Of a stretch of DNA of 63,158 nt, positions 2,080-45,399 are shown piece after piece. Origin of the DNA: Acidobacteriota bacterium (GTDB lineage Bacteria; Acidobacteriota; Holophagae; Holophagales; Holophagaceae); NCBI GenBank assembly GCA_021794095.1, contig JAJYRN010000016.1:1-63158 (forward strand), given 5' to 3'. The number at the start of each line of letters is the position of its first letter. The stretch's first letter is position 1. The position numbers and the translations under genes are program-made. The notes under the pieces are model-generated. The model saw only the letters and a list, made by a program, of their open reading frames with translations. It was not told the DNA's origin and did not search any database.

Positions 2080-3474
2080 TCAGTCCTCGCCCTCCGTCGC
2101 AGGAAGACCGCGGCGAAGGCTCCGCACCAGCTGGCCGCAGGCGCCGCCCACATCCTGGCCCCGGGAGCGCCGGACACTCACGGTCAGACCGGCCTCCACG
2201 AGCTGGCGGCAGAGGGCGCCGATCCGTGCCTCGTCCGGGGGCTCGAAGCCGCTGCCCGCATGCGGATTGAAGGGGATGAGGTTCACCTTGCTGGGGAAGC
2301 GGCGGGCAAAGGCGGCCAGGCGCCGGCCATCCTCCAGGCTGTCGGTGAGGCCTTTCAGAAGGACGTACTCCAGGGTGATCCGCTCACCAGACTGGAGTGG
2401 GAAGCGCCCCAGGGCCTCGGCCAAGGCCTCCAGGTTCCAGACACGGTTCACGGGCATGATGCGGGAACGGTGCTCGTCCGTGGTGGCATTGAGGCTCAGC
2501 GCGAGGCGCGGCCGCTTAGGATAGGTGCCCAGCCGCTCGATGCCGCTCACCAGGCCCGAGGTGGAGACGGTGATGCGGCGGGGCGGGATGGCCAGGCCCT
2601 TCGGATCCGTGAGGATGGCGAAGGCGGCCATGAGGTGGTCCAGGTTGTGCAGCGGCTCGCCCATGCCCATGAACACCAGGTTGACCGGCACGTCGGCGGG
2701 ATGTCCGTGATGGTTCAGCATGGCCACCACCTGGCCCACGATCTCCGCCGCCGTGAGGTTGCGCAGGATGCCCATCTGCCCCGTGGCGCAGAACGTGCAC
2801 CCCATGGCACAACCCACCTGGCTGGAGAGACAGAGCGTCACCCGGTCGAGGGTATTGATGTCCGGGGGCGTAGGTCGCAGACCGGCCCCCCGGACAGCAA
2901 AGCCCGGGGCAGGCTCCGCCTGAACCGGGCGCGGGGGCTCCGGGGGCGTAGGTCCCAGACCGGACCCCCGGACGGCAAAGCCCGGAGCAGGCTCCGCCTG
3001 ACCCGGGCGCGGGGGCTCCGGGGGCGTAGGTCGCAGACCGGCCCCCCGGACAGCAAAGCCCGGAGCAGGCTCCGCCTGAACCGGGCGCGGGGGCTCCGGG
3101 GGTGTAGGTCGCAGACCGGACCCCCGGACAACATAGGGCATGAAGACGCCCTCGATCTGCTTCCCATCCGCCAGCTGGAAGACATGTTTGGTGGCGCCAT
3201 CCTCGGAGGGCTGGCTCTGGACGATCTCCGGACCGCGCAGATCCACGGACTCCGCCAACCGGGCCCGCAACGGTTTCGGCAGGACGGTGAAACGCTCCCA
3301 CGCGGTCCATCGCTGGCGGTAGAGCCCCTCGAAGAGCTGGCCGCCGCGCCAGGCGGGCTCGCCCAGGGATTCCATCAGCCTGCGGAGCGCGGGCAGATCC
3401 AGGCCTGCGGCATCGGGCCGGGCCAGGGGGGTGGCTTCCGGCGCAGGCCGGTCCCAGGCGGCGCCCAAGCTCAA
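2080..3474 (-). CDS. rlmN: Dual-specificity RNA methyltransferase RlmN with an in-frame repeat insertion
   Basis: RlmN is a radical-SAM enzyme that makes m2A2503 in 23S rRNA and m2A37 in tRNA. The N-terminal accessory domain is present (MESLGEPAWRGGQLFEGLYRQRW). So are the cluster motif CAMGCTFC near residues 223-230, the GMGEPLHN motif, and the second catalytic cysteine in the C-terminal GGACGQL. At 464 residues it is about 90 longer than usual because residues ~116-205 are a proline-rich tandem repeat of 26 residues (GLRPTPPEPPRP...) between the accessory and radical-SAM domains. The likely start is TTG at 3474, overlapping the upstream stop; a later start is possible. Confidence 0.93.
   Translation of the reverse strand: MSLGAAWDRPAPEATPLARPDAAGLDLPALRRLMESLGEPAWRGGQLFEGLYRQRWTAWERFTVLPKPLRARLAESVDLRGPEIVQSQPSEDGATKHVFQLADGKQIEGVFMPYVVRGSGLRPTPPEPPRPVQAEPAPGFAVRGAGLRPTPPEPPRPGQAEPAPGFAVRGSGLGPTPPEPPRPVQAEPAPGFAVRGAGLRPTPPDINTLDRVTLCLSSQVGCAMGCTFCATGQMGILRNLTAAEIVGQVVAMLNHHGHPADVPVNLVFMGMGEPLHNLDHLMAAFAILTDPKGLAIPPRRITVSTSGLVSGIERLGTYPKRPRLALSLNATTDEHRSRIMPVNRVWNLEALAEALGRFPLQSGERITLEYVLLKGLTDSLEDGRRLAAFARRFPSKVNLIPFNPHAGSGFEPPDEARIGALCRQLVEAGLTVSVRRSRGQDVGGACGQLVRSLRRGLPATEGED
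2860..3129. repeat. 78-bp palindromic tandem repeat inserted in rlmN
   Basis: There are three full 78-bp units and a half unit, starting at 2861, 2939, 3017 and 3095. Each unit contains a hairpin from GTCCGGGGGC to GCCCCCCGGAC with an inner GGTC/GACC stem, then a second hairpin GCCCGG..CAGGC-TCC-GCCTG..CCGGGC. The array begins and ends with the first hairpin. Its 270 bp equal exactly 90 codons, so the rlmN frame is kept. Copies differ at a few bases, so it is not a simple assembly duplication. Confidence 0.9.
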
Positions 3475-28293: not shown

Positions 28294-28490
28294 CATCAAC
28301 GAGGGGGGACCGCCTGCTCGCCTTCGGCTCGCGATGTCCCCCCTCCTCCACCCCCACGGGGTATCCCGGCCAAGCCGGGACACCCCGTCTGCCATCAACG
28401 AGGGGGGACCGCCTGCTCACCTTCGGTTCGCGATGTCCCCCCTCCTCCACCCCCACGGGGTATCCCGGCCAAGCCGGGACACCCCGTCTG
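28291..28490 (+). repeat. Dual-hairpin element, two tandem 99-bp copies
   Basis: Two copies start at 28294 and 28393. Each has a hairpin GAGGGGGGAC...GTCCCCCCTC capped by a C(TTCG)G loop, then CCCCAC, then a second 12-of-13-bp hairpin with a CAA loop, ending in GTCTG. Between the two copies the inner stem changes GCC/GGC to ACC/GGT, a compensatory pair change around the same TTCG loop. The array starts at the stop codon of the TPR gene. Confidence 0.9.
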
Positions 28491-28501
28491 ATTCCAGAGC
28501 C

Positions 28502-40322: not shown

Positions 40323-40427
40323 TTCAGACGCGGTGTCCCGGCTCAGCCGGGACGCCGCGTGGGGATGCACGAGGGGGGACATCGCGAGCCGAAGGCGAGC
40401 AGGCGGTCCCCCCTCGTTTATGTTCAG
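40323..40427 (-). repeat. Dual-hairpin element after the PP2C gene
   Basis: Read on the minus strand, this copy begins ~10 bases after the PP2C stop, with CATAAACGAGGGGGGACCGCC, a C(TTCG)G-capped hairpin, CCCCAC and then a second hairpin GCGGCGTCCCGGC-TGA-GCCGGGACACCGC. Its outer stem GCGG/CCGC differs from GGGG/CCCC in the 28.3-kb copies by compensatory changes, and GTCTG follows again. Confidence 0.9.
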
Positions 40428-41999
40428 TCACGTGCCCTCGCGTTTCACCACCACCAGGGTCACATCGTCGCGGAACTTGCCGTCACCGAGATGGCGGAAG
40501 ACTTCCACCAGCAAGGCCACCAACAGGTCGTCGGCGGAGGCGCCCGGATGGGCCAGGACGATGTCGGCCAAGGGCGCATCGCCCAGCTCGTCGCCCGCCG
40601 GGTTCTCGGCCTCCACGAGGCCATCGGTGAAAGCCACCAGGACATCGCCCGGTTCCATCTGGGCCCGGCCTTCTTCGAAGGTCACCCCCGGCAGCAGGCC
40701 GACCATGGGCCCCGTGGGCGCCAGCCGGACGATCTCTCCCGAGGCCCGGACCAGGAGCGGCGGATTGTGGCCGCCGTTGACGTAGCGCAAATCGCCGTTG
40801 AGGGGATTCAGGCTGGCGGCAAACAGCGTGGTGTAGCGGTTGCCATCCCGCACATCATTCATGCGCCGGTTCAGGCGCTCGGCCAGGCGCCCCCAGTGCT
40901 CGACCCGGTGGTCCGCCATGGCCCGCAGGAAGGCCGAGAGCTGCACCATCATCATTGAGGCGGGCAGGCCCTTGCCAGAGATGTCGCCCACGGCCACATG
41001 CAGACGGTCGCCCAGCTGATCGTCCCGGGCCATCCACAGGTCGTACAGATCGCCCCCCACCGCCTGGTAGGGGAGGTTGGCCGCGGCACAATCCCAGCCC
41101 GGAGGCGCGGGCAGCCGCTTGGGCAGCATCTGGCGCTGGATGTCGCGGGCCAGATCGAGATCCTTCTCCAGCCGCTCGGCCTGGCGCCTGGATTCCCGCA
41201 GCTCCAGCGCCGAGAGCTGCGTGGAGGTGAGGTTCAGGAGCGTGCGGAGGAAGAGCAGATCGTCCTCGGAAAGCTGTCCCACGGCGGGCTCGGCGGTGTA
41301 GGCGAAGCCGTGGCTGTGGGCCTGATCGAGCAGCTCGATGGCATGCACCAGCCCCTTGGCCTGGACCATGTCGCGGAGCGCTTCGCCTTCCAGCACCCGC
41401 GGCACCTCCCCGACGCCCTTGGCGTGGAGCACCTGACCCTCGGCATCCACCACCAGCAAACGCATGATCCGGAACTCGCCCATGAGCGTGTTGGCCATGA
41501 GACGCACCAGGTCGCGGCGGTTGTCCACCTCGCCCAGGTTCCGGGTGAGTTCGAACACGGTGTTCAACCGCGAGAGCTGGAGGGCCAGGGCCTGGGTCTG
41601 AACGCTCCGCTGGACCTCCAGGCGCCGCCAGGCCAGCAGGGGCGCGGAGATGGACAGCAGCAGCGGCACCGCTTCCGGAACAGCCTCGGCCCGCAGGACC
41701 AGATGGCCGAAGGTATCGTCCCCATAGGCCCAGGGCAGAACCTGCCAGCCCTCGCCCGGGTGTGTCGGGAAGGCGGGAGCAGCCCCCCGCAGCCACAGCC
41801 ACGCCGCGCCATCCCAGATGCCGCCCTGGCCGGCCTTGGCGATGCCCATGGCCGTGATGCCCACCAGATGGACCAGATCCTCCTCGCTCCCCTGGTCGGG
41901 AAAGGTTTCGAGGAAATCAATGAGTGGCAGCAGTTCCCGGGCCCCCTCGGGGATCCGGAGGGCCAATTCACGCAGGCGGTCGAAGGGGGTGGTCCGCAT
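40428..41999 (-). CDS. RsbU-like PP2C phosphatase with GAF-like sensor
   Basis: The 523-residue protein has an N-terminal region with a GAF-like domain (LSRLNTVFELTRNLGEVDNRRDL through LLVVDAEGQVLHAKG). A short coiled coil (ERLEKDLDLARDIQRQMLP) leads to a SpoIIE/PP2C phosphatase domain with VGGDLYDLW, VGDISGKGLPASMMM and FTDGLVEAENPAGDE metal-binding motifs. It is expected to dephosphorylate the STAS antagonist two genes upstream. ATG 41999 lies 14 bases after the RsbW-like stop. A dual-hairpin element follows the stop. Confidence 0.88.
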   Translation of the reverse strand: MRTTPFDRLRELALRIPEGARELLPLIDFLETFPDQGSEEDLVHLVGITAMGIAKAGQGGIWDGAAWLWLRGAAPAFPTHPGEGWQVLPWAYGDDTFGHLVLRAEAVPEAVPLLLSISAPLLAWRRLEVQRSVQTQALALQLSRLNTVFELTRNLGEVDNRRDLVRLMANTLMGEFRIMRLLVVDAEGQVLHAKGVGEVPRVLEGEALRDMVQAKGLVHAIELLDQAHSHGFAYTAEPAVGQLSEDDLLFLRTLLNLTSTQLSALELRESRRQAERLEKDLDLARDIQRQMLPKRLPAPPGWDCAAANLPYQAVGGDLYDLWMARDDQLGDRLHVAVGDISGKGLPASMMMVQLSAFLRAMADHRVEHWGRLAERLNRRMNDVRDGNRYTTLFAASLNPLNGDLRYVNGGHNPPLLVRASGEIVRLAPTGPMVGLLPGVTFEEGRAQMEPGDVLVAFTDGLVEAENPAGDELGDAPLADIVLAHPGASADDLLVALLVEVFRHLGDGKFRDDVTLVVVKREGT

Positions 42000-44366: not shown

Positions 44367-45299
44367 GTGATCCCGGCCCCCGATCTTCCCCTCATTGATC
44401 GCCACACCCACCTTGAGGGCGCCCTCGATCCGGACTGGGTGTGCGGCGAGGCGGAACGCCGGCGGCTGGCCCTGCCAGCGTCCCTTGAGGCCCTGTGGAA
44501 CGGAGCGGCGCTGCCTTTCCAGAGCTTCATCGAAGCCTTCCTCTTCGGCGCCTCTCTCCTCGACAGCCGTGAAGCCGTCCGGCAGGCGGCGCTGGCCGTG
44601 GCCCGGCGCACCCTGGCCGCCGGGGCCACAGGCGTGGATCTCTGGGTGTCCCCCCATTTCCTCGTGGTCTACCGGGGCCAGATCAGCCTCGAGAACCTCT
44701 GGCGCGGCCTGGATGACGGGCTGGCGGAGGCCCGGGCTCTCGGTCTGCGGAGCAGCGTCGTGGTGGATGCCGTCAACCACTTCGGCCCGAAGCACGGCCA
44801 CGCGGTCTTGGACCTCGTGCTGCCAGAACGGCCCGCCTTCCTGAAGGGCTTCTCCACCGGCGGCCTGGAAGGCACCCCCTTCCGCGAGTGGGCCCCGGTC
44901 TTCGCCCGCGCCCGTGCCGCGGGGTTGCGCCTGGCCGCCCATGCCGGAGAGAACGGACCCGGCTCGAACGTGCGCGAGGCGATTCTGGAAGCCGGCGTGG
45001 AGCGCATTGTCCACGGCCTTCGGGCCGATGACGCGACCCTGGCCCTCCTGGCCGAACGGCGCATTCCCGTGGATGTCTGCCCCCGCTCCAACGCTGGCCT
45101 CGCCGCCGATGTCCAGCCCCATCCCCTGCCGCGCATGCTGAAGGCCGGCGTGCGCTGTGCCCTTGGCACCGACGATCCCGGCGTCCTGCCCTGCGACCTC
45201 GCCTCCGAGCGGGAAGCCGCCCGGGCCATGGGCCTGGAAGAAGCCGACCTGACCCTCCTGGACCGCCACGGGGCCGAGGACGCCTGGTGCCTAGCCTGA
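44367..45299 (+). CDS. Adenosine deaminase family protein
   Basis: The 310-residue protein is an amidohydrolase of the adenosine/AMP deaminase type. It has the N-terminal metal motif DRHTHLEGAL, the middle AAHAGENG, HGLRADD and the late ALGTDDPGVL. These match the ADA zinc and catalytic residues. Adenine deaminase or aminofutalosine-type deaminase activity is also possible. The start is GTG 44367. A CATAAT box (44355-44360) lies only 6 bases upstream, so the mRNA may be leaderless. A dual-hairpin element begins at its stop. Confidence 0.82.
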   Translation: MIPAPDLPLIDRHTHLEGALDPDWVCGEAERRRLALPASLEALWNGAALPFQSFIEAFLFGASLLDSREAVRQAALAVARRTLAAGATGVDLWVSPHFLVVYRGQISLENLWRGLDDGLAEARALGLRSSVVVDAVNHFGPKHGHAVLDLVLPERPAFLKGFSTGGLEGTPFREWAPVFARARAAGLRLAAHAGENGPGSNVREAILEAGVERIVHGLRADDATLALLAERRIPVDVCPRSNAGLAADVQPHPLPRMLKAGVRCALGTDDPGVLPCDLASEREAARAMGLEEADLTLLDRHGAEDAWCLA

Positions 45300-45399
45300 A
45301 CGAAGGGGACCGCCCGCGCCCTCCAGGCGCTCTGCGTCCCCCTCGTGCTCCCCACATGGTGTTCAGGCTAAGCCTGATCACCATGTCTGGCCTAAACTC
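45297..45399 (+). repeat. Divergent dual-hairpin element after the deaminase gene
   Basis: It begins at the stop codon (TGAACGAAGGGGAC), has a hairpin capped by GCGCC-CTCCA-GGCGC, then CCCCAC, then a 12-of-13-bp hairpin ATGGTGTTCAGGC-TAA-GCCTGATCACCAT, and GTCTG. Nearly every stem base differs from the other copies while the pairing is kept. Confidence 0.85.

Follow-up and report, generated by a model that had tools for sequence, protein, structure and literature searches.

The best-known cases of palindromic elements that code within genes come from Rickettsia, whose reduced genomes and genetic drift are natural suspects. Rickettsia RPEs are palindromes found in frame in unrelated genes, with a stop-free frame and apparently without inactivating the genes that carry them (PMC10969869 section 4.2). 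REPs are small palindromes, often two per element, lying mostly directly 3' of ORFs, and intragenic REPs of the GTAG and CGTC superfamilies have been reported from O. terrae, Thauera, Xanthomonas and R. conorii (PMC3733652). These code for 20-30 aa, or for 43-82 aa when clustered, and their targets include many DNA-repair and RNA genes such as uvrA/uvrB; in recB of two Xanthomonas the insertion lies at about the same site (PMC3733652). Arrays of the BIME-2/REPIN type repeat a two-hairpin module head to tail, and the number of copies varies (PMC2817692). Enterobacterial RU elements (PMC2759123) and the coding palindromes of Nematomorpha mitochondria (PMC6649704) are further cases in which a palindrome or small mobile element is part of a coding sequence. 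No earlier report of such elements in Acidobacteriota was found in the open-access literature searched, which is not proof of absence.

In the window, that is, the whole stretch of 63,158 nucleotides analysed here (contig JAJYRN010000016.1 of a Holophagaceae genome, assembly GCA_021794095.1), a palindromic array of this kind lies within rlmN:

2080-3474, minus strand: rlmN; the called ORF has 464 codons, its start codon being uncertain (Pfam RlmN_N and Radical_SAM; NCBIfam TIGR00048)
3130-3135, minus strand: left junction of the array, TAT-GTT before GTCC, like the left end TRATGYTGTCC of intergenic copies
2860-3129, minus strand: tandem array in frame, 3.5 x 78 bp, (H1-H2)3-H1, encoding (VRGSGLRPTPPEPPRPVQAEPAPGFA)n
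3052-3129, minus strand: array unit 1, with H1 at 3095-3129 and H2 at about 3058-3086 (covariance model R1, 97 bits)
2974-3051, minus strand: array unit 2 (R1, 88.1 bits)
2896-2973, minus strand: array unit 3 (R1, 88.4 bits)
2860-2895, minus strand: terminal half unit, H1 only (R1 match at 2854-2895, 40.1 bits)
2839-2859, minus strand: right junction of the array, ATCAATACC-CTCGAC-CGGGTG

The array is confirmed as a genuine feature of the sequence. The first-pass annotation had described an in-frame 78-bp repeat of 3.5 copies with two hairpins per unit in rlmN, and repeat finding, folding and RlmN profiles all bear this out. TRF (2861-3130) gives a period of 78 bp and 3.5 copies with 94% matches and zero indels, and each unit folds into two hairpins, H1 of 35 nt, formed by TCCGGGGG..CCCCCGGA plus an inner 4-bp stem, and H2 of about 29 nt, with as many as 13 base pairs in the stem around CAGGC..GCCTG. 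The fold of the 270-nt array transcript has a z of -4.55, with none of 200 dinucleotide shuffles equally stable, and intrinsic terminator calling found none within the array. The insertion had been put at exactly 90 codons, which is right for the 270-bp array itself; the net insert relative to empty alleles is 282 bp (94 codons), that is, the array and 12 bp of flank.

As had been proposed, the Pro-rich insert lies between the two domains of the protein (RlmN_N at residues 24-76, Radical_SAM at 218-379 of the 464-codon ORF). The array peptide, of about 90 residues, is missing from most relatives, and solved RlmN structures have 1 residue where this RlmN carries about 95. The protein scores 320 bits against the RlmN equivalog TIGR00048 (cut-off 290), and it retains the radical-SAM CxxxCxxC and the C-terminal Cys columns that are invariant in the alignment. 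AlphaFold predicts an RlmN fold, with the catalytic core mostly at pLDDT >90, and the best PDB matches of the predicted model are RlmN structures. Residues 119-199, all below pLDDT 50 except residue 158, are modelled as a loop joining the strands at 106-115 and 209-216. Core dN/dS in the compared pairs was 0.07-0.19 when at least one allele was filled and 0.07-0.28 when both were empty, which shows purifying selection on the rlmN core; a pseudogene was rejected on account of these low values. The array-bearing RlmN most likely retains its activity, and the insert is most likely a passenger element. In addition, C28:79840-80571 holds another RlmN-like gene with about 60% identity, which most congeners also have, and this redundancy may ease tolerance of the insert.

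Searching the genome for the 78-bp unit, as the first-pass annotation had suggested, revealed dispersed copies genome-wide and a second genic site in frame. The covariance model R1, built from 37 units, detects 37 copies in the present genome at E <= 0.01, and an 86%-identical four-unit relative of the array lies on C28; single units and half units also exist besides tandem arrays. At E <= 0.001 all 43 same-genus genomes searched were matched, copy counts being lower bounds, and among the matches listed there was none from the 27 genomes that represent other genera in the class and phylum. In a further five genomes, all nearly complete, 10-23 matches were counted per genome. No Rfam family covers the elements at E <= 0.1. 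Both hairpins are kept by compensatory changes and covary strongly: 93 pair cells carry changes on both sides, where shuffles give 27.5 +- 4.7 and slid controls 11-21, and 90% of cells are paired in the hairpin alignment against 29-57% in slid controls. The inner stem of H1 occurs as GGTC/GACC, GGCC/GGCC, GGGC/GCCC and GCGC/GCGC.

The claim of a gene-invading element stands, with the qualification that its usual place is after stop codons and genic copies are exceptions. Gene context was assigned to 32 noncoding copies with a codon-score gene finder made for this analysis; 30 of the 32 are in sense orientation to the upstream gene, and 21 begin 3-8 nt past its stop codon, most commonly 4. Many overlap the stop codon with a motif like TRATGYTGTCC. 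In one clear example, a purH-like gene ends and is followed by H1-H2-TTTTC and then alaS (names from translations). From their position, intergenic copies probably act as terminators or mRNA-end hairpins, and several have H2 followed by CTTTTC downstream of genes; the T tract is weak in many, so that a terminator role is uncertain. Elements of 92-99 bp that probably share the architecture of the rlmN unit are present elsewhere in the window:

28300-28491, plus strand: related two-hairpin gene-end element of a 99-bp subfamily, 2 copies, 6 nt past a stop codon (R1 E = 6e-4 and 2.5e-3; TRF)
40324-40418, minus strand: related two-hairpin element directly 3' of the minus-strand gene at 40428-41999 (R1 E = 2.5e-4)
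45299-45390, plus strand: related two-hairpin element at the end of the plus-strand gene at 44367-45299 (R1 E = 6.5e-4)

Another diverged subfamily of the same genome is seen at L010:4692-4940, where a 94-bp unit with CAGGCTCCGCCTG as hairpin core is repeated 2.6 times.

The second genic site is in an ABC ATPase gene, where a unit of the rlmN type lies in the same frame shortly before the stop codon in 7 species (filled in G000, G027, G011, G060, G005 and G023, and a deleted remnant in G067). Empty orthologues end in ..LHPQTGA* and similar. The TGA at the left end of the element is out of frame here, but an origin of this tail by stop read-through was rejected, since the empty orthologues indicate insertion before the native stop. 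At L009:4815-5121 and L009:6946-7275 of the same genome, two 78-bp arrays occupy one ABC transporter operon, one in frame in the first ATPase gene and the other between genes, immediately past the stop codon of the second; about 2.5 kb further on there is a second rlmN-like gene.

A second family, consisting of multi-hairpin inserts that are GC-rich and about 75-81 bp long, was found in frame at two other rlmN sites (9 inserts):

rlmN site 2, after HHxHP: second family in G001, G009, G033, G034, G066 and G068 (loci L223, L225, L226, L227, L228 and L229)
rlmN site 3, before GFEPPDE: second family in G011, G014 and G027 (loci L221, L222 and L224)

RlmN of G014 and G034 carries inserts of both palindromic families. 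Copies of the second family are also in frame in RNase R (L247-L250, L252), UvrC (L251), CarB (L257) and an outer-membrane efflux protein (L253), with a recurring peptide like EAGAEAHRTEGSAQRARP / EAGAEAHRTEGSAQ; these proteins were identified by family-profile scans, and the second family was seen in the filled genes of congeners.

The recommended alignment of RlmN from relatives revealed clean empty sites at the array junction, commonly reading ..MPY-[E/D]DRVTL.. or near it in the genus, as in solved RlmN structures. The junction is filled in 14 of 46 congeners (13 placed on the tree, and G023, whose gene spans two contigs), with 0.5 (G028) to 3.5 units (G000). Insert length, from 0 to 285 bp among congeners, is patternless; in filled alleles it is always a multiple of three, and the frame is always VRGSGLRPTPPEPPRP.. 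Relatives with the same linker and no palindromic structure had been named as counter-evidence; filled relatives keep the hairpins. In Holophagaceae bacterium UBA692, RlmN is 77% identical and the site is empty, with no clear unit in the 5.7 kb examined. An extra Leu-Asp (CTCGAY, once CTTGAC), preceding the Arg/Trp-Val of the domain start, is found at the right junction of all filled alleles and of no empty one.

We consider it likely that the array arose when a REP-like two-hairpin repeat, specific to the genus and with a gene-end niche, was inserted in frame into rlmN, once and early, and that it afterwards changed in copy number and was lost or exchanged. In its usual niche the element starts about 4 nt past a stop codon and is read in the same sense as the gene, probably serving as a terminator or as a hairpin at the mRNA end. 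A single copy would have entered rlmN early in the genus, between codons that join the N-terminal and radical-SAM domains, in a frame and with a length (78 = 3 x 26) free of stops. The insert could be tolerated because the Pro-rich peptide is predicted to form a disordered loop that links two strands and stays clear of the catalytic fold. Its copy number may then have drifted from 0.5 to 3.5 units among lineages, as for any tandem repeat, many lineages later losing the insert or swapping the allele.

The main point of contention is whether rlmN was struck once. On the rlmN-core tree with inserts removed, 13 of 45 tips are filled and 11 changes are needed against a shuffled-label mean of 11.5, so filled alleles do not cluster beyond shuffled labels; the state differs even within the sister pairs G000/G027 and G028/G019. 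A single origin thus demands many losses or exchanges. Repeated site-specific insertion at the junction, by which filled species would mostly represent independent events, accounts well for this scatter, and also for three rlmN sites being struck by two families. Moreover, empty alleles have exactly the ancestral length, which makes precise loss hard to imagine. Recurrent insertion is also kept in play by the flanks of the junction, which show no sign of recent tract exchange (a recent long-tract horizontal spread of the filled allele was rejected, the flanks being hardly more alike than expected), and by the closeness of rlmN units to ABC units of the same genome, about 0.84 (ten pairs, nearly all G000) against 0.81 for rlmN units between species, which hints at possible within-genome copying. 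However, Leu-Asp stands beside the insert in every filled allele, and the inner stem of H1 is locus-specific, GGTC/GACC in most rlmN units, GGCC/GGCC in ABC units and GCGC/GCGC in many intergenic ones. Scattered presence together with the Leu-Asp common to every filled site suggests one old insertion, which would have been followed by many losses or allele exchanges, and we regard mostly independent insertion as unlikely, although a real possibility.

The early single entry also has to be weighed against readings in which the array is not a passenger or not an element at all. A Pro-rich linker of variable length may have been selected to tune RlmN, for example its access to rRNA versus tRNA, making the array a functional VNTR. 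All of 17 units are free of stops in the frame used, in which the H1 compensatory changes GGT/CGA -> GGC/CGG are also synonymous, and rlmN units are less diverse at codon positions 1 and 2 than at 3 (0.132/0.164/0.222), whereas noncoding units are flat (0.267/0.255/0.285); this third-position excess may be a weak sign of selection on the peptide. Yet most congeners have no insert, lengths vary without pattern, the loop is predicted to be disordered, the same peptide terminates an unrelated ABC ATPase, and the synonymous fraction in frame (0.46) is little above the intergenic one (0.42), which together make a tuned linker improbable. An ordinary Pro-rich coding minisatellite, grown by slippage and with hairpins as a by-product of high GC, would suit the GC-rich region and the tandem layout, but it fits badly with single and half units, with noncoding copies genome-wide bearing the same two hairpins, and with compensatory changes far above shuffles, and we hold it to be very improbable. 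Even though the assembly is a draft of 28 contigs, the same codon junction is filled, with other copy numbers, in the one- or two-contig assemblies of G002, G032 and G067, which leaves an assembly artefact with a practically negligible chance.

With regard to mobility, no match to PF01797 (RAYT-type Y1 transposase) was found in this genome, which is 99% complete, the E. coli control being positive, nor in 22 of 24 other same-genus genomes searched; RAYT/TnpA-REP was thus rejected as mobiliser here. The only congeners with PF01797 among the 24 are G019 (L083, L094), with seven matches, six of them equal-scoring, and G014 (L084). A plasmid or phage carrier was also discarded, as comparison with plasmid and phage sequences left the array unmatched. 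MITEs carry terminal inverted repeats and a target-site duplication; here the two ends of a unit do not form an inverted repeat, and by eye the filled and empty junctions of rlmN and the ABC gene gave no clear target-site duplication. Entry into reading frames occurs here without an evident transposase. Perhaps the genus has an undescribed, RAYT-independent system that spreads gene-end hairpins and repeatedly places them in frame in core genes, with rlmN preferred (three sites, two families), and the two families would then be a continuing source of new disordered protein segments; we find this speculative and rather doubtful. In any case, two families code within genes here, in a genus of acidobacteria whose genomes measure 3-4 Mb and which has dozens of sister species, and its empty and filled alleles, together with the copy series from 0.5 to 3.5, make the route of entry, loss versus exchange and the relevance of the segments testable.

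Compared with the systems described, the phenomenon is of the kind known from RPEs and intragenic REPs. The likeness to Rickettsia drawn by the first-pass annotation holds for the invasion of reading frames: like RPEs, the element is palindromic and in frame in unrelated genes (rlmN, ABC ATPase) with known empty orthologues. The resemblance is one of mode of insertion, by description, and across the 70 genomes of the phylum searched the unit was confined to a single genus. Unlike RPEs, it resides in another phylum, in genomes of about 3-4 Mb, usually just after stop codons, and has a 78-bp two-hairpin tandem unit where an RPE is a lone element of about 150 bp. RU elements and the palindromes of Nematomorpha belong to different hosts and are likened by description. 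A repeated two-hairpin module of variable copy number is shared with BIME-2/REPIN, where, however, regularly spaced REPs alternate in orientation, while H1 and H2 here differ in sequence and stem layout. As with REPs, the palindromes are dispersed, of 20-40 bp and near ORF 3' ends (H1 35 nt, H2 about 29 nt). In rlmN and ABC units H1 contains GTAG when read on the reverse strand, whereas most intergenic copies of this genome have GTGTGCGCGC or similar in its place; a constant GTAG/CGTC end tag is not present in the two-hairpin family. Also unlike REPs are its covariation-diverged subfamilies and the filling of one site in 14 species with varying copy number. Without a constant tag, with no RAYT gene in this genome and with two unlike hairpins, the element is outside REP as defined; CGTC REPs likewise lack a RAYT gene (PMC3733652). 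Intragenic REP dimers and clusters are nonetheless as near a precedent as Rickettsia RPEs, and the two are the nearest described.
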